DNA from: Bacteroidota bacterium
GTDB lineage: Bacteria > Bacteroidota > Bacteroidia > Chitinophagales > Chitinophagaceae
Length of the DNA: 64,000 nucleotides
Assembly (NCBI GenBank): GCA_018267915.1
Contig: JAFDXN010000062.1
Span: 1-64,000, forward strand
Reading direction: 5' to 3'
Part shown: positions 2 to 8,056 of the stretch, in pieces
Layout of the letters: each line of letters begins with the position of its first letter
How positions within the stretch are numbered: position 1 is the first letter of the stretch
The notes under the pieces: generated by a model
The model's database searches: none
The model's input: only the letters and a program-made list of their open reading frames with translations
What the model was told of the DNA's origin: nothing
Program-made: the position numbers and the translations under genes

Positions 2-370
2 ACGCAGCAGACCTACACGACCAACACGCTGCAGATGGGCGATGTGATAAGCTGCAGGGTGCGCGGCCTGAGCATATGCGACACGGCAGCCAGTGGTGTG
101 ACGATGACGGTATGGCCGGTAAATGTGGCAAATGTGGAAAATGCGACAATGTGGGTGAATGTGTATCCGAACCCGGTGAAGGATATTTTGCAGATAGACT
201 ACAGCAACATTAGCAATGCGGAGCTGGAGCTCTGCGATATGGCAGGAAGGGTGCTGATACAGCAGCCGCTGGGCCACAGCCTGGATATGAAGGGACTGGC
301 CAGCGGAACGTATATGCTAAGGATAGTGGGCGAAGGTATGAGCGTGGTGAAGATGGTGAGTAAAGAGTAG
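2..370 (+). CDS. C-terminal end of a T9SS-secreted protein (partial)
   Basis: The reading frame is open from the first bases of the window, so the 5' part lies outside. The last ~80 residues form a type IX secretion C-terminal sorting domain: VYPNPVKD, then the ELCDMAGRVL strand, then LASGTYMLRI and VVKMVSKE at the end. This domain directs outer-membrane export by the Por/T9SS machinery and is removed or anchored at the surface. The preceding residues (TYTTNTLQMGDVISCRV, CDTAASG) resemble the beta-rich repeats of large secreted adhesin-like proteins, but the catalytic or binding part is not visible. A strong terminator follows 50 nt after the stop. Confidence 0.85.
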   Translation, partial: TQQTYTTNTLQMGDVISCRVRGLSICDTAASGVTMTVWPVNVANVENATMWVNVYPNPVKDILQIDYSNISNAELELCDMAGRVLIQQPLGHSLDMKGLASGTYMLRIVGEGMSVVKMVSKE

Positions 371-493: not shown

Positions 494-703
494 TTAGTTG
501 CTATAAGTGCTTTGGGCAGATGTGTTGCCGGTGCTATGAATACTGGTGGATCGCGAAAAGGATTTGCGGTCGGTACTGATATTGCCGTTGCTTTCGGTGC
601 TCAGGAGCAAAATCAATAATATAATAAGCGCATAAATGCCGATAAGTGTGGCGGTGAGCCGGCGGGATGCTATGTGCTGGCGCGGGGGTAATTGATAAGC
701 CAT
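494..703 (-). CDS. Small single-pass membrane protein, hypothetical
   Basis: This is a 69-residue product if started at the ATG at 701-703 (MAYQLPPRQ). The frame stays open to a Met at 772, but the extra residues look like non-coding extension and the inner start has a purine-rich GAGAGAAA tract just upstream. One hydrophobic helix spans about residues 20-36 (IGIYALIILLILLL). It is preceded by basic residues and followed by a Ser/Thr-rich tail. No family is recognised. It may be a real small inner-membrane protein or chance; coding evidence is limited to the clean helix and its position between two terminator-like elements. Confidence 0.45.
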   Translation of the reverse strand: MAYQLPPRQHIASRRLTATLIGIYALIILLILLLSTESNGNISTDRKSFSRSTSIHSTGNTSAQSTYSN

Positions 704-823: not shown

Positions 824-1774
824 TTATTTAGCGAGCCATTTTTCGATCTCGCCCTTGTCGAGGGTGATGTAGCTGGCCTGGGCCTCGACCACACCATTAT
901 TAACCCAGTCGATCTGGGGTATGGCGATGATCACCTGTCCATTCTCTACCTTCTGAACGATGCGCTTAAAAGGCTCCTCTTCGAGGCGGGTATAAGGGAT
1001 ATTGGTAGCGCGCGTCTCGTCGAAGAATGCTTTGAAATTCTTATCGGCGCCTACCAGGACCATATAAAAGGGCAGATTAGGGTTCTGTTCTTTCATGATG
1101 TGTATCTTAAGGGCTGCCTTCCGGCAGTGCGGGCAACCCAGGCTGAAAAAGCAGATGATGTGCTTGCCATGATCGAGATCGATGGCGGGAATATCTTTGC
1201 CGCCGGGCTGATAGAGGGGGGCAAGGTCTAGCTTATAACTGTCTTTTCCCAGCCATGTCTGCTTTTCGAAAACCATTGGCTGGTAAATAAATGCGCCGGC
1301 GATGATGCCTATGAACAGCAAAGGCTCAAGCAGCCAGGACCACTGGAAGGAAATGCCTTTGTGGAAACGTATCAAAACGACGAGCAGCCCGATCATGATA
1401 AGGTTCTTGATAAGAGAAGCTGAGGGGCTCATCAGCACCTGGTCGCCAAAGCAGCCGCAGTTGACATTATTGCCCTGTGTGGCCCAAAGATACACGAGAT
1501 AAATGCTGAAGACGGCCAGTAGGGCAAGGGCGATCTTGAGCACCCACTTGCGGTTACCATAAAAATGAATGATCATCAACACACCGAGTGCTGCCTCAAG
1601 GCCTACGAAGAACCGGGCTAGGAAAGAAGCAAGCATCCAGGGCAGGTGAACAGAGTCGACTATATTAAACTCGAAGGCCTGGATAGGGAGGGTTTTGCTG
1701 TAAGCAGAGTATAAAAAAGTGGCTCCGAGGGCAACAGAGACCAGGATATATAAGACAACCAGAAGTTTTTTCAT
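824..1774 (-). CDS. MauE/DoxX-like membrane protein fused to a thioredoxin-fold domain
   Basis: The 316-residue protein has an N-terminal MauE/DoxX-type region (about residues 1-165) of several helices, with a conserved CGCFGD motif (Cys106, Cys108) in a loop. A thioredoxin-like domain (about 195-316) follows with a CPHC redox pair at Cys214/Cys217. MauE-type proteins help periplasmic disulfide handling by passing electrons across the membrane to a thioredoxin-like partner. Here both halves are in one chain, which suggests a self-contained thiol oxidoreductase. The next genes downstream on this strand are far away, so it is probably monocistronic. Substrate is unknown; the adjacent array of cysteine-patterned lipoproteins is a tempting but unproven client set. 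Confidence 0.8.
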   Translation of the reverse strand: MKKLLVVLYILVSVALGATFLYSAYSKTLPIQAFEFNIVDSVHLPWMLASFLARFFVGLEAALGVLMIIHFYGNRKWVLKIALALLAVFSIYLVYLWATQGNNVNCGCFGDQVLMSPSASLIKNLIMIGLLVVLIRFHKGISFQWSWLLEPLLFIGIIAGAFIYQPMVFEKQTWLGKDSYKLDLAPLYQPGGKDIPAIDLDHGKHIICFFSLGCPHCRKAALKIHIMKEQNPNLPFYMVLVGADKNFKAFFDETRATNIPYTRLEEEPFKRIVQKVENGQVIIAIPQIDWVNNGVVEAQASYITLDKGEIEKWLAK

Positions 1775-1937: not shown

Positions 1938-1968
1938 AAGAAGGGCATCTGTGAAAGATGCCCTTCTT
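1938..1968 (-). terminator. Terminator of lipoprotein copy 1
   Basis: A 13-bp perfect stem (1938-1950 with 1956-1968) has a 5-nt loop and a T-rich tail on the minus strand. Its core is nearly the same as the terminator after copy 2, which indicates that gene and terminator were duplicated together. Confidence 0.8.
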
Positions 1969-1986: not shown

Positions 1987-2211
1987 CTATTTCAGGGAAC
2001 AGCTAACTCCTGACCAAGCAGTGGTGCTAGTGTAGGTCGTACACCATGCTTTAGCGTCTTTCTTAGAGAGCTTAGTACCAGACTTAACTTCGGTAGTTTG
2101 AGTCACGCCGTTAACTGTGTAACTGCAAGAGCAAGTATACTCTTTCTTGCAAGAAGTCAAAGACAGTGCGCCGAACAGGGCAACCAGTGCGATGGGGATG
2201 ATTTTTTTCAT
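1987..2211 (-). CDS. Small cysteine-patterned lipoprotein, array copy 1
   Basis: This 74-residue protein is predicted to be exported and lipidated. MKKIIP and a hydrophobic helix lead to the lipobox LTSC (Cys21), followed by KKEY. The mature part has CSC (Cys27, Cys29), then a SKKDAK segment followed by WC, and ends in CSLK. The ATG at 2209-2211 is preferred to an upstream Met at 2262, because only the inner start gives the same signal peptide as the neighbouring copies. Copies 1 and 2 are almost identical through KSGTKLSKKDAK, so this is a recent duplication. Function is unknown; four non-lipid cysteines could form two disulfides or bind a metal. Confidence 0.8.
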   Translation of the reverse strand: MKKIIPIALVALFGALSLTSCKKEYTCSCSYTVNGVTQTTEVKSGTKLSKKDAKAWCTTYTSTTAWSGVSCSLK

Positions 2212-2231
2212 AAAGTTGGTTTTTGTTAAGG

Positions 2232-2263
2232 CAAATCTATTAAGGTGTAGCGTAAAAAGCAAT
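2232..2263 (-). promoter_or_regulatory. Promoter of lipoprotein copy 1
   Basis: The -7 box TAGATTTG lies at 2232-2239 and a -33 ATTG at 2260-2263 (minus strand), separated by 20 nt. This fits the Bacteroidota primary-sigma pattern, and it is about 20 nt upstream of the start codon. The same ATTG-N20-TAnnTTTG arrangement occurs before copies 2 and 3. Confidence 0.6.
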
Positions 2264-2296
2264 ACGTAACAAAAACAATCCTACCATTATGCAAAA

Positions 2297-2324
2297 AAAA
2301 GGGCATCTGTGAAGATGCCCTTTT
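2297..2324 (-). terminator. Terminator of lipoprotein copy 2
   Basis: A 12-bp stem (2297-2308 with 2313-2324) with GTGA in the loop and a T run on the minus strand. The core GGGCATC/GATGCCC is shared with the terminator of copy 1. Confidence 0.8.
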
Positions 2325-2338
2325 CAACATACAATGAA

Positions 2339-2560
2339 CTATTTCAGTGAACAGCTAACACCAGTCCAAGCGGCGCTAGTGTAGGCAGTACACCATGTTT
2401 TAGCGTCTTTCTTAGACAGTTTGGTGCCAGACTTAACTTCGGTAGTTTGAGTCACGCCGTTAACTGTGTAGCTGCAAGAGCAAGTATACTCTTTCTTGCA
2501 AGAAGTCAAAGACAGTGCGCCGAACAGGGCAACCAGTGCGATTGGGGCAAATTTTTTCAT
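2339..2560 (-). CDS. Small cysteine-patterned lipoprotein, array copy 2
   Basis: A 73-residue close paralogue of copy 1 with the same lipobox ALSLTSC, KKEYTCSC, the SKKDAK segment followed by WC, and the terminal CSLK. Start is taken at the ATG at 2558-2560; the upstream Met at 2584 would lie over the promoter. Differences from copy 1 are confined to the first residues and the last ~20. It has its own promoter and terminator, so each copy seems to be transcribed alone. Likely attached to a membrane through the lipidated cysteine; which membrane cannot be told from the +2/+3 lysines. Confidence 0.8.
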   Translation of the reverse strand: MKKFAPIALVALFGALSLTSCKKEYTCSCSYTVNGVTQTTEVKSGTKLSKKDAKTWCTAYTSAAWTGVSCSLK

Positions 2561-2581
2561 AATTGTAGTTTTTTTGTGGGA

Positions 2582-2613
2582 CAAAAGTATAAAGGCCTTA
2601 CGGTATAAGCAAT
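2582..2613 (-). promoter_or_regulatory. Promoter of lipoprotein copy 2
   Basis: TACTTTTG (2582-2589, minus strand) and ATTG (2610-2613) are separated by 20 nt, matching the promoters of copies 1 and 3. The predicted transcript start is only some 15 nt before the ATG. Confidence 0.6.
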
Positions 2614-2675
2614 AGTATCACAAAATATTATCCGCGCATCGCGGAGTTATTGATAATCAGTCTTATACAATGAAT

Positions 2676-2706
2676 AAAAAAGCGCACCCGTTAGGAGCGC
2701 TCTTTT
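2676..2706 (-). terminator. Terminator of lipoprotein copy 3
   Basis: AGCGC and GCGCT arms, with inner ACC/GGA pairing, sit between A and T runs. The hairpin is imperfect but lies 18 nt after the stop of copy 3, with a T-rich tail on the minus strand. Confidence 0.65.
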
Positions 2707-2723
2707 ATGTAATCGGTTTACCA

Positions 2724-2927
2724 TTACTTAAGTGAGCAGGAAGCGCCAGCTGTGTTATTGTAAGTGGTGCACCATGTTTTGGCATCTTTGTGGCTGATCT
2801 TCACGCCGGAGCTAACTTCGGTGGTTACGCCATTATAAGTGCAAGCACAAGTGTAGACTTTCTTGCAAGACGTTAATGACAATGCGCCGATGAGGGCGAT
2901 AATCGCAATTGGGGCTACTTTTTTCAT
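2724..2927 (-). CDS. Small cysteine-patterned lipoprotein, array copy 3
   Basis: A 67-residue paralogue with signal MKKVAPIAIIALIGALSLTS, lipid Cys21, KKVYTCAC (Cys27, Cys29), the SHKDAK segment followed by WC, and a terminal CSLK. The mature domain is shorter than in copies 1-2 (YNGVTTEVSS replaces the longer hairpin region), but every cysteine is kept. This copy is diverged at DNA level from copies 1-2, so the family has both old and recent duplications here. No enzyme motif is visible. Confidence 0.8.
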   Translation of the reverse strand: MKKVAPIAIIALIGALSLTSCKKVYTCACTYNGVTTEVSSGVKISHKDAKTWCTTYNNTAGASCSLK

Positions 2928-3007
2928 AATTATTGCTTTTTAAATTGTGACGAATAATATTGCCTAATGTGTCAAACAAAACAAAAACCATGTTGTACCT
3001 GACAGGA

Positions 3008-3039
3008 CAAAAGTAGAATGCTCCCAAAGCGGGTTCAAT
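3008..3039 (-). promoter_or_regulatory. Promoter of lipoprotein copy 3
   Basis: TACTTTTG (3008-3015, minus strand) and ATTG (3036-3039) are separated by 20 nt. The start codon is at 2927, which leaves a leader of about 70-75 nt, longer than for copies 1 and 2. Confidence 0.6.
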
Positions 3040-3083
3040 ACCATTTTAGTGGTATTTTTAATAAGTGGTAGTACGGATGCGGT

Positions 3084-3299
3084 TTAGTTAAGGCTGCAGC
3101 TGGTGCCGTAAACTTTCCAGTAATTGTCGTAATTGTCGCATGTGCTTTGAGCGTCTTTTTTTGCGGCATTCTTGACCTGGTAGGTGGCTGCGCCGATGCC
3201 TGTGGTGGCATTTGAACAGGTGCAAAGCCAATCCTTCTTGCAGGAAGTTAGAGAAAAGATGACAAAAACCAAAGCGGTAAAAAAGAAGACTTTTTTCAT
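3084..3299 (-). CDS. Small cysteine-patterned lipoprotein, array copy 4
   Basis: A 71-residue product with signal MKKVFFFTALVFVIFSLTS, lipid Cys20, KKDWLCTC (Cys26, Cys28), a KKDAQSTC segment and the terminal CSLN. It is more diverged than copies 1-3, but the order lipid-Cys, CxC, basic-DA-x(3)-C, C-x-L-K/N is the same. It ends in CSLN rather than CSLK. No strong promoter match was found in the ~130 nt upstream. Confidence 0.75.
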   Translation of the reverse strand: MKKVFFFTALVFVIFSLTSCKKDWLCTCSNATTGIGAATYQVKNAAKKDAQSTCDNYDNYWKVYGTSCSLN

Positions 3300-3383
3300 A
3301 AAGAAGCGTTGGACATGGTAAATTTAAGGCTTTGCCCTAACAGATGCAACAGGGCATTAAAAAGCTTTAGCCAATTACAAAAA

Positions 3384-3408
3384 ACCTGCAAGGGTTAGCC
3401 CTGCAGGT
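3384..3408 (-). terminator. Terminator of the copy 6-copy 5 operon
   Basis: ACCTGCA-A-GGG pairs with CCCTGCAGGT around a TTAG loop, with one bulged base. On the minus strand it is followed by six T residues, 24 nt after the stop of copy 5. Confidence 0.75.
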
Positions 3409-3431
3409 GGTCTGTATAGTTTCAGAAAAAG

Positions 3432-3644
3432 TTACTTAAGGCCGCAAGCCCATGTTTGACCCAAAACACTTGTAGATTGCTGATTGCACTGATTTTCAGC
3501 ATCTGAATGTTTCATTTTTCCCAAGTCCTGGTCGTACACCACGGTGCCATTGTAAGTACAAGTGCAGTGGTAATCCTTTTTACATGAGGTAAAAGAAAAG
3601 ATCGAAGCTGAAGCGATCAGCATTAAAACGGTTAGTTTTTTCAT
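3432..3644 (-). CDS. Small cysteine-patterned lipoprotein, array copy 5
   Basis: This 70-residue protein has lipobox FTSC (Cys21), KKDYHCTC (Cys27, Cys29), a KHSDAENQC segment and the terminal CGLK. It starts 18 nt after the stop of copy 6 on the same strand, with no room for its own promoter, so copies 6 and 5 should be one transcript. The mature segment (YNGTVVYDQDLGKM) is unlike the other copies apart from the cysteines and the DA motif, which points to the cysteine framework as the conserved element. Confidence 0.75.
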   Translation of the reverse strand: MKKLTVLMLIASASIFSFTSCKKDYHCTCTYNGTVVYDQDLGKMKHSDAENQCNQQSTSVLGQTWACGLK

Positions 3645-3662
3645 GGTATGTTTGTTTATATA

Positions 3663-3890
3663 TTATAAGTTGCAGTTTGTGGTGCCGGGAGTAGTAGCAT
3701 TTGCATCATCTTCAAACCTTTGGCAAGCCTGCTCGGCATCGTGATGATATTGGTTTTCAAGGTCGTGATCTACGGTTGTCTCCACCGGGCCAACGGTGTT
3801 GGTGCATTTACAGATGTAGTCGTGCTTGCAGGAGGAAAACGTAAGAGCGCCTGACAACAGGATCGCGGTAACGATGGATATCTTTTTCAT
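3663..3890 (-). CDS. Small cysteine-patterned lipoprotein, array copy 6
   Basis: A 75-residue product if started at the ATG at 3888-3890 (MKKISIV); an upstream Met at 3947 would add a stretch that is not a signal peptide. Features are lipobox FSSC (Cys21), KHDYICKC (Cys27, Cys29), a HHDAEQAC segment, and a cysteine three residues before the end (CNL). It is the most diverged and most acidic/His-rich copy. It leads a two-gene operon with copy 5 and is divergent from rpoB. Confidence 0.75.
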   Translation of the reverse strand: MKKISIVTAILLSGALTFSSCKHDYICKCTNTVGPVETTVDHDLENQYHHDAEQACQRFEDDANATTPGTTNCNL

Positions 3891-4243: not shown

Positions 4244-7200
4244 ATGGCTATACCTCAAAAACGAACCGGATCAGGACGTGTAAATTTCGGGAAGATACAC
4301 GACGTAGCAGATACACCTGACCTGCTTGGCATCCAGCTCCAATCTTTTAAAGATTTCTTCCAACTCGAGACAACGCCCGATAAGCGTAACAACGAGGGGC
4401 TGTTCAATGTGTTCAATGAGAATTTCCCCATTACAGACACGAGGAACATCTTCGTGCTGGAATTTCTTGACTACTTCATCGACCCGCCACGCTACACGAT
4501 AGATGAGTGTATGGAGCGCGGGCTAACCTATTCGGTGCCGCTGAAGGCGAAACTGCGCCTGAGCTGTAATGATGAAGAGCACGTAGATTTCGAAACAATA
4601 GTACAGGACGTGTTCCTGGGCAATATACCGTACATGACACCGCGCGGTACGTTCGTGATCAACGGCGCTGAACGCGTTGTGGTATCGCAACTGCACCGTT
4701 CGCCGGGCGTATTCTTCGGACAGAGCGTTCACCCCAACGGCACGAAGATCTACAGCGCCCGCGTGATACCTTTCAAGGGTGCATGGATGGAATTCGCTAC
4801 GGATATCAACAACGTGATGTATGCGTACATCGACCGCAAGAAGAAATTCCCGGTTACTACGCTGCTGCGCGCTATAGGTTACGAAACAGATAAGGACATC
4901 CTGGAACTGTTTGGCATGGCTGATGAGGTGAAGACCGACAAAAAGAGCCTTGCCAACCACATAGGCCGCCGCCTGGCAGCACGCGTGCTGCGCAGCTGGA
5001 CGGAAGACTTTGTGGATGAGGACACCGGTGAAGTGGTGACCATCGAACGTAATGAAGTGGTGCTGGACCGTGACAGCGTGCTGGACGAGGACAATGCCGC
5101 TATGATACAGGAAATGGGTATACCGACCGTGTTCCTGCAGAAGGAAGAGGTGAGCGGTGACTTCTCGATCATCTACAACACGCTGAACAAGGATACATCG
5201 AACTCAGAACTGGAAGCGGTACAACACATCTATCGCCAGCTGCGCGGCAGTGACGCACCGGATGATGAAACAGCCCGTGGCATCATCGAAAAGCTGTTCT
5301 TCAGCGATAAGCGTTATGACCTTGGTGAAGTGGGCCGATACAAGATCAACCGTAAGCTTGGCCTGGATATCGACCTCGATACCAAAGTGCTGAGCAAGGA
5401 AGACATCATCTCGATCATTAAATATCTCGTTCGCCTTACTAACGGTAAAGCGGAAATAGACGATATTGATCACCTGAGCAACCGCCGTGTGCGTACTGTG
5501 GGCGAGCAGCTCTTCGCACAGTTCGGCGTTGGTCTGGCACGTATGGCGCGTACCATCCGCGAGCGTATGAACGTGCGTGATAATGAAGTGTTCACGCCGA
5601 TCGACCTGATCAATGCACGTACACTGTCATCGGTTATCAATTCATTCTTCGGTACATCGCAATTATCGCAGTTCCTTGATCAGACCAACCCGCTATCGGA
5701 AATAACACACAAACGCCGTATCTCGGCACTCGGCCCAGGCGGATTGAGCCGTGAGCGTGCGGGCTTCGAAGTACGTGACGTACACTACAGCCACTACGGC
5801 CGCCTGTGTACCATTGAAACACCAGAAGGTCCGAACATCGGTCTTATCTCCACGCTTTGCGTACATGCGAAGATCAATGACATGGGCTTTATCGAAACTC
5901 CATACCGCAAGGTGAAGGAGGGTAAAGTGGACCTGAAGCACCAGCACTACCTGAGCGCTGAAGAGGAAGACCTCGCCAAGATAGCCCAGGCAAATGTGCC
6001 ACTGGATGACAAAGGCCATTTCGTAGAAGAAAAGATCAAATCGCGTCAGACTGGTGACTTCCCGATACTGGACCGCGAAGAAGTAGAATACATGGACGTG
6101 GCGCCTAACCAGATCGTTGGTTTGAGTGCGTCGCTCATTCCGTTCCTTGAGCATGATGACGCCAACCGCGCGCTGATGGGATCGAACATGCAACGCCAGG
6201 CTGTGCCGCTGATACGCCCGCAAGTGCCAATAGTAGGTACGGGCCTGGAGGCGAAAGCTGCCCGCGATGCACGTATACAGATACATGCTGAAGGCACAGG
6301 TGTGGTGGAGTATGTGGATGCAAACGAAATACACGTGCGCTACGACCGTAATGATAAAGACAGGCTGGTTTCGTTTGAGGACGACCTGAAAGTGTATTCG
6401 CTGACGAAATATAAAAAGACCAACCAGAGCACCAGCATAACTCTCCGCCCTTGCGTAACCAAAGGACAGAAGGTGAAGAATGGCGACTTCCTGACAGAAG
6501 GCTATGCTACCAAAGATGGTGAACTGGCACTGGGCCGTAACCTGAAAGTGGCCTTTATGCCATGGAAGGGATACAACTTTGAGGATGCGATAGTGATCAA
6601 TGAAAAAGTGGTGCGTGACGACCTGTTCACGTCGGTACACATCGATGAGTATGAACTGGAAGTGCGTGATACCAAACTGGGTGAAGAAGAGCTGACACCA
6701 GATATACCAAACGTATCGGAAGAAGCTACGAAAGACCTGGATGAGAACGGTATCATCCGTATAGGTGCACACGTGGGTGAGGGCGATATCCTGATTGGTA
6801 AGATAACTCCGAAGGGTGAAACTGATCCTACGCCGGAAGAAAAACTGCTGCGGGCCATCTTTGGTGATAAAGCAGGTGATGCGAAAGACGCATCGCTGAA
6901 GGCACCAAGCGGTACTGAAGGTATCGTGATCTCAAGGCAGCTGTTCCAGCGCGCTAAGAAAGACAAGAACTCAAAAGTGCGTGAAAAGGCTGCACTGGAG
7001 AAAATAGAAAAGGTGCACGAGAAGAATGTAAGCGATATACAGAGCCTGCTGCTGGAAAAACTGCAGGTGCTGCTGAAGGATAAGACTTCCGCCGGTATCA
7101 CTAACAACTTCGGTGAGCCGGTACTTGCAAAGGGCGGTAAGTTCAACTCGAAGACACTGGGCTCGATAGACTACCAGAACGTGAACCCGCTGGGCTGGAC

Positions 7201-8056
7201 AGGTGATAAGGAGACCGACGATGCGATCAACCAACTGCTGCACAACTTCAACATCAAATTCAACGAAGAAGTTGGCCGCTACAAGCGTGAGAAATTCAAC
7301 CTGAGCATAGGCGACGAACTGCCTGCAGGTGTGTTGAAACTTGCGAAAGTATACCTGGCCAGCAAGCGTAAGCTGAAGGTGGGTGATAAGATGGCGGGAC
7401 GCCACGGTAACAAGGGTATCGTTGCCAAGATCGTTCGTGAAGAAGATATGCCCTTCCTGGAAGATGGAACACCTGTAGATATAGTACTGAACCCGCTGGG
7501 CGTGCCTTCGCGTATGAACCTGGGGCAGATTTATGAAACCATCCTCGGATGGGCAGGGGAGAAGCTGGGTGTGAAATTCGCTACGCCGATCTTCGATGGC
7601 GCTACCGTAGAAGAAATTGAAGGCCTGATAAATAAAGCGGAATTGCCAGATTTTGGTCACACCTACCTGTATGACGGCGAAACAGGCGAACGCTTCCACC
7701 AGAAGGCCACAGTTGGTATCATCTACATGATCAAACTGCACCACATGGTGGACGATAAGATGCACGCGCGTTCTATTGGCCCATACAGCCTCATTACACA
7801 GCAGCCGCTGGGTGGTAAAGCTCAGTTCGGTGGCCAGCGTTTCGGTGAAATGGAAGTTTGGGCACTTGAAGCATATGGTGCTGCAAACATCCTGCAGGAA
7901 CTGCTGACACTGAAATCGGATGACATAGTTGGTCGTGCGAAGACCTATGAAGCGATCGTGAAAGGCGACAACGTTCCGAAAGCAGGTATCCCTGAATCAT
8001 TCAATGTATTGGTGAATGAGCTTCGCGGCCTGGGTCTCGAACTGAAGTTTGAATAG
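4244..8056 (+). CDS. rpoB: RNA polymerase beta subunit
   Basis: RpoB is the catalytic beta subunit of RNA polymerase. The 1270-residue protein begins [16 protein letters not shown] at the ATG at 4244, preceded by AAGGAG (4226-4231). A TTG 30 nt upstream is in frame but lies in the T-run of the leader hairpin and is rejected. The rifampicin-binding region starts near residue 469 ([30 protein letters not shown]) and carries the usual sensitive-type residues. The active-site lysine region [17 protein letters not shown] lies near residue 1049. rpoC follows after 60 nt. Unusually, rplL and the other L7/L12-operon genes are not upstream. Confidence 0.97.

Follow-up and report, generated by a model that had tools for sequence, protein, structure and literature searches.

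The 64,000-nucleotide stretch of the Bacteroidota bacterium contig JAFDXN010000062.1 (Chitinophagaceae; hereafter the window) carries a tandem array of six small lipoprotein genes, alongside a gene encoding a MauE domain fused to a thioredoxin domain (MauE-Trx). Array and fusion together probably form an oxidative-folding module, in which MauE-Trx would make two disulfides in each lipoprotein and the array itself, as part of the same explanation, would be a lineage-specific tandem expansion of a small-lipoprotein family. The components are as follows, with the coordinates of the six lipoprotein open reading frames (ORFs) including their stop codons.

1987-2211, minus strand: lipoprotein copy 1, 74 residues, predicted lipid Cys21, with Cys7, Cys9, Cys37, and Cys51 in the mature part (ORF, alignment, and AlphaFold2 model)
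2339-2560, minus strand: lipoprotein copy 2, 73 residues, 92% identical in protein sequence to copy 1
2724-2927, minus strand: lipoprotein copy 3, 67 residues (ORF and alignment)
3084-3299, minus strand: lipoprotein copy 4, 71 residues, with an orthologue in the array of genome G002
3432-3644, minus strand: lipoprotein copy 5, 70 residues, with orthologues in the G002 and G003 arrays
3663-3890, minus strand: lipoprotein copy 6, 75 residues, with orthologues in the G002 and G003 arrays
824-1774, minus strand: MauE-Trx, 316 residues (Pfam MauE match, alignment of 21 homologues, AlphaFold2, and Foldseek)

The initial annotation had described six minus-strand genes for small lipoproteins with a common cysteine plan, and both the ORFs (67-75 residues) and the alignment agree with it. 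Invariant among the six copies are Met1, Lys2, and Lys3, the Ser-Cys of the lipobox, a lysine at +2, a CxC motif, Asp-Ala, a further cysteine, and a final C-x-L. In a profile search of the same genome (G000) the six copies scored E = 1e-29 to 7e-34 and members elsewhere E = 1e-13 to 1e-3, so the pattern shared by the six is not due to chance. The described near-identity of copies 1 and 2 does run through the terminator hairpin, and copies 4-6 are indeed strongly diverged, with 33-35% identity to copy 1. Copies 1 and 2 have the coding sequence and terminator stem in common and differ more upstream, with their synonymous differences concentrated at the 3' end, a pattern that would fit recent duplication or gene conversion.

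An N-terminal signal and a lipobox ending in cysteine are present in all six copies and in the aligned homologues, which are thus predicted lipoproteins and signal peptidase II substrates. A scan of 84,980 species with the pattern CKK[DE][YW]xCxC returned 525 matches, of which 343 were confirmed as relatives and 80 loci were kept, fetched by the lipoprotein alone with neighboring genes playing no part in the choice. The source records of these loci are titled Bacteroidota nearly throughout, including Chitinophagales and Flavobacteriales. Two loci, L113 and L148, come from a record titled as an Azovibrio restrictus metagenome-assembled genome (MAG), and their near-identity to L116 and L178 of an uncultured Bacteroidota MAG makes this label look like a binning or naming error. 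The window and the fetched loci together give 121 unique sequences, 119 of which keep the whole cysteine framework; among 100 aligned members the five cysteines are the only invariant columns, with Lys2, Lys3, and Ala33 nearly so, although conservation at the pattern positions is partly by construction, the third and fourth non-lipid cysteines lying outside the pattern.

Since a profile that included the signal peptide (A1) matched long lipoproteins falsely, on the strength of their signal alone, a mature-only profile (A3) was used for copy counts. At E ≤ 1e-3 the own genome holds ∼18 members by the mature part and 21 when the signal is counted in, spread over many contigs. Genus-mates hold 9-24 and the Taibaiella genome (G005) holds 8; most other Chitinophagaceae have no members. 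Among the 61 relatives scanned, 17 carry members at E ≤ 1e-3, and one more, G016, carries a more diverged member. The family had initially been left without a name, and the searches bear this out: Pfam gave no family in any of the 100 members, NCBIfam two isolated weak matches only, PADLOC nothing meaningful, PHROGs no family, and a sequence search of the PDB no match, and the literature on the motif or on small lipoproteins with thioredoxins held no description of this lipoprotein family. Neither of the results named as refuting the initial annotation was seen, as cysteines and lipobox persist in orthologous arrays and no homologue has an assigned function. By its sequence, this is an unnamed, widespread Bacteroidota family.

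AlphaFold2 modeling of mature copy 1, with a 100-sequence alignment, gave a ββαβ mini-domain (predicted local distance difference test score (pLDDT) 87.4, predicted template modeling score (pTM) 0.63), with strands at residues 3-13, 16-28, and 50-53 and a helix at residues 30-43. The four non-lipid cysteines all fall within the secondary-structure core of the model, Cys7 and Cys9 being placed in strand 1, Cys37 in the helix, and Cys51 in strand 3, and the conserved basic residues appear to lie near the lipid end with variable loops at the far end. Pairing of Cys9 with Cys51 and of Cys7 with Cys37 is suggested and would fit the L147 homologue (4489-4740), which has lost both the second cysteine of CxC and the last cysteine. 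Foldseek comparison of the model found nothing significant either in the PDB (best E 0.6) or among viral structures, where the best E was 0.07 (TM ∼0.7) to uncharacterized phage proteins, at a size where small folds match easily.

The MauE-Trx protein matches the Pfam MauE family (PF07291) with E = 8e-24 and 84.8 bits against a cut-off of 27, and its AlphaFold2 model has a pLDDT of 88. Two cysteine pairs are invariant in 21 homologues, Cys106/Cys108 (CGC) in the MauE part and Cys214/Cys217 in the thioredoxin part, the latter forming CPHC in most homologues and in the window gene. CPHC is the motif of the oxidant DsbA; by Foldseek, the domain as a whole resembles TlpA/ResA-type thioredoxins. 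A CPHC thioredoxin domain combined with a membrane domain that has its own conserved cysteine pair is also the layout of the DsbA-DsbB and VKOR-thioredoxin systems. The membrane domain here is, however, a Pfam MauE domain, unlike DsbB or VKOR, and coupling of MauE-Trx to quinones is hypothetical. The scanned MauE-Trx homologues likewise match MauE and not the DsbB or VKOR families, and profiles for DsbB (PF02600) and VKOR (PF07884) have no match in the own genome, whereas control genomes do match.

MauE has been proposed to help form the disulfides of the small protein of methylamine dehydrogenase (PMC7794033, citing van der Palen 1997). The MauE/MauD system thus resembles the window in encoding MauE and a thioredoxin-like protein beside a small exported multi-cysteine protein; it differs in that here MauE and thioredoxin form one polypeptide, whose presumed client is a lipoprotein of 50 residues that occurs in multiple copies. 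The BT_3928 family (NF045576) also shares the MauE domain, but it is longer (about 360-440 residues), reaches less than 115 bits with the MauE-Trx profile, and has a family lipoprotein nearby in 0 of 17 tabulated cases.

The genetic association between the lipoprotein family and the membrane thioredoxin is strong. At 38 of the 80 lipoprotein-selected loci (37 by script, with L150 added by hand), a gene for a membrane CxxC thioredoxin-like protein lies immediately downstream on the same strand, mostly at 11-200 nucleotides. Its product takes one of two architectures: about 300-330 residues with MauE, as in the window, or about 190-240 residues with a few transmembrane segments, no MauE, and mostly a CPYC-like motif. 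Viewed from the enzyme side, MauE-Trx profile scores in the relatives are cleanly bimodal (215-465 bits versus less than 115), and 12 of 18 full-length MauE-Trx genes in these 61 genomes have a family lipoprotein 69-234 nucleotides upstream of the MauE domain, compared with 0 of 28 other tabulated MauE genes and a random-placement expectation of ∼0.05 of 18. The count becomes 13 of 18 when L310 is included, where the G016 flanks show the more diverged lipoprotein. Of the 14 genomes with MauE-Trx, 13 belong to the 17 with lipoproteins (Fisher p = 5e-9) and the fourteenth is G016, which also has one; the relatives share ancestry, and this p value therefore overstates independence. Recurrence at two loci per genome and in two architectures is the stronger argument, the own genome having a second lipoprotein/MauE-Trx pair at G000:C49. 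Handling of the lipoprotein disulfides by the adjacent MauE-thioredoxin, initially a guess, now has support both from linkage at many loci unrelated to one another and from the phyletic co-occurrence of the two genes.

In the mechanism that we propose, the lipoproteins would first be exported by Sec and lipidated, after which the DsbA-like CPHC thioredoxin domain would oxidize their cysteines. Each would then be a ∼50-residue ββαβ mini-domain set directly on its lipid anchor and stapled by two disulfides. In other disulfide systems the electrons are removed by DsbB or VKOR; here the MauE membrane domain would take them away through its CGC pair. The folded lipoprotein would subsequently move to the outer membrane, and MauE-Trx would serve as its dedicated enzyme, acting in cis or in trans.

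Several observations weigh against this mechanism. Roughly half of the 80 loci have no thioredoxin neighbor, and the same holds for nearly every dispersed copy in the own genome; on all of these the enzyme would have to act in trans. The short Flavobacteriales partner has no MauE domain. Four genomes (G037, G042, G044, and G057) have the lipoprotein only, MauE-Trx relatives outside the class occur without it, and the gene that precedes MauE-Trx in G005 and G036 encodes a different, cysteine-poor lipoprotein. TlpA/ResA proteins, most of them reductases, are the closest matches to the thioredoxin domain. Finally, the proposed pairing rests on the single joint loss in L147, and L040 has lost the last cysteine alone.

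The reductase resemblance bears on a second reading, in which the lipoproteins would be envelope thiol proteins binding copper or zinc, with their cysteines kept reduced by MauE-Trx or another thioredoxin-fold neighbor, much as TlpA keeps the ScoI cysteines reduced. A thiolate site could come from the CxC and the two further cysteines, and in L127, L132, L145, L166, and L173 a gene for an SCO1/SenC copper chaperone (about 5305-6419) replaces MauE-Trx just downstream. Those five loci represent a single narrow lineage, however; the lipoproteins have no conserved histidine or methionine, their mature domains are poor in other hydrophobic residues and seem to need staples, and most MauE-Trx proteins carry the CPHC motif of an oxidant. 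Metal binding is considered unlikely.

A role in superinfection exclusion, which would be compatible with a folding module, is given similarly low probability. Here the lipoproteins would block receptors by jamming outer-membrane proteins from the periplasmic side, and many copies would cover different receptors. One viral contig, IMGVR_UViG_3300010885_033467 from IMG/VR (a 62.6-kb record; L299/L300), encodes an intact 71-residue member with all five cysteines (L299:4947-5162), on the strand opposite to its neighbors and beside a 1613-residue virion structural protein. The cassette is a single gene with a hairpin-plus-T terminator and a TAGATTTG box of its own, a moron-like layout that makes exclusion a testable guess. 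Llp and Rtp45, small phage lipoproteins, block outer-membrane receptors from the periplasmic side, and Rtp45 contains a structural disulfide (PMC9586334, PMC12685063). Together with Cor, T5 Llp and Rtp45 are lipoproteins of ∼6-8 kDa, a size like that of this family, which differs from them in being chromosomal and multi-copy, in its four-cysteine predicted ββαβ fold, and in having no sequence match beyond the signal region. The PHROG matches to Cor (PHROG 1119) are weak and confined to residues 1-45, mainly signal. Moreover, three scans yielded the single viral contig, no member was found in 50,697 annotated phages queried with copy 2 or with the phage member, nor in annotated plasmids queried with copy 2, and most members occupy fixed positions in the chromosome, next to housekeeping genes such as rpoB. 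A version joining exclusion to folding, and quite unlikely as a whole, would have the family consist of outer-membrane plugs stapled by disulfides and also carried by phages, which would block receptors or protein channels and be folded by a dedicated MauE-thioredoxin oxidase. If true, the array would be a cassette on the chromosome for superinfection immunity or receptor gating, complete with a folding machine of its own.

It is very unlikely that the lipoproteins are bacteriocin-like precursors or precursors of ribosomally synthesized and post-translationally modified peptides (RiPPs), lipidated and cysteine-modified with a dedicated redox enzyme in the manner of DAG-RiPPs or of pediocin and PedC. 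DAG-RiPPs (dyb/chr clusters) are also small Bacteroidota lipoproteins (PMC12636315), which like this family have further cysteines, and MauE genes in Streptomyces adjoin cysteine-rich candidate precursors (PMC7794033). Unlike DAG-RiPPs, however, members lack the CPACGMG motif. Their surroundings contain no recurring gene for a transporter or for other tailoring, and a globular fold is predicted for the domain. A RiPP/MNIO identity was rejected, as the own genome has no match to the MNIO family PF05114, which control genomes do match. Lastly, that the lipoproteins are unrelated to MauE-Trx and paired with it by accident of a conserved position beside rpoB, an adjacency seen at 16 of the 80 loci as well as in genus-mates, is extremely improbable, since the pairing recurs at many loci without rpoB nearby, with different partner architectures, and in a second pair elsewhere in the own genome.

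For the oxidative-folding module itself, the array was also examined for selection, expression, and location. The initial annotation had suggested that duplication reflects a dosage need or a diversifying interaction. The latter is not supported by the ratio of nonsynonymous to synonymous substitution rates (dN/dS). In the pairs for which dS could be estimated, copies 1 and 2 differ from each other with a ratio of 0.16 and from their G002 orthologue with one of about 0.09-0.10; in other orthologue pairs synonymous sites are saturated, with dN of 0.14-0.49. Copies and orthologues are, on these sequence comparisons, under purifying selection. A dosage need is a weak suggestion and high expression is not supported, as codon adaptation of the copies to rpoB/rpoC (0.53-0.63) is ordinary for the window (0.45-0.69) and below that of rpoB and rpoC themselves (0.74-0.75).

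The surface export signal of Capnocytophaga (LES) requires K-(D/E)2 or Q-A-(D/E)2 after the lipid cysteine (PMC5080379). The C-K-K-D/E-Y/W motif of the lipoproteins has one acidic residue and falls short of this minimal signal. A lysine at +3, counted by eye, is nevertheless found in 25 of 30 SusD proteins (surface) versus 2 of 20 BamD proteins (periplasm-facing) of the relatives, and from this resemblance surface exposure through a different local signal is possible despite the Capnocytophaga rule.

Further features accompany the array and its MauE-Trx neighbor.

2232-2262, minus strand: predicted Bacteroidota-type promoter of copy 1, TTG-N20-TAGATTTG, with the -7 box beginning at -28 from the ATG
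2582-2612, minus strand: predicted Bacteroidota-type promoter of copy 2, TTG-N20-TACTTTTG
1940-1968, minus strand: predicted terminator hairpin of copy 1, GAAGGGCATCT...AGATGCCCTTCTT, matched to that of copy 2
2298-2324, minus strand: predicted terminator hairpin of copy 2, with a stem near-identical to the copy 1 hairpin
4244-8056, plus strand: rpoB, the divergent neighbor, which marks the conserved position of the array and lies outside the module
494-703, minus strand: one-helix membrane protein of 69 residues, downstream of MauE-Trx (ORF, no Pfam match)

The promoter matches of copies 1 and 2 are strong (TTG-N20-TAnnTTTG, 0.013 expected per 120 nucleotides) and equally distant from the start codon, and that of copy 3 is placed further upstream. 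Copies 6 and 5 are separated by 18 nucleotides, and copy 5 is probably co-transcribed with copy 6. The 494-703 protein has an S-[KR]-[WR]-L-T-A-T-L motif and belongs to a cluster of 11 locus copies, its homologues lying 3' of MauE-Trx or of copy-1 orthologues in several genus-mates and L150. At the window edge, 35-370 (plus strand) encodes a protein C terminus with what was judged by eye to be a type IX secretion system sorting-domain-like sequence (YPNPVKD...).

Neighbors elsewhere add to this picture. The second MauE-Trx is partnered, in several genera, by a separate subfamily of the lipoproteins, marked by a conserved [PT]GxPGLPDS-like loop (e.g. PGLPDS), seen in L081 (G000:C49:28624-29860), L306, L308, L309, L310, and L044. 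The cysteine-poor lipoproteins encoded before MauE-Trx in G036 and G005 (L271:2508-3020 and L307:2668-3270, respectively) have ∼170-180 residues and share the motif ..DATP..NP..GTF. Among the neighbors of the copies dispersed through the own genome no function recurs; one of these copies, L075:5577-6251 (G000:C49), adjoins a gene for a DoxX-family membrane protein.

The lipoproteins constitute a phylum-wide, multi-copy family so far annotated as hypothetical or not at all, which could now be named and assayed. As small, abundant, and genetically linked candidate clients, they would make it possible to test directly whether MauE-thioredoxin fusions form disulfides, and this bears on the way disulfides arise in Bacteroidota that have neither DsbB nor VKOR.

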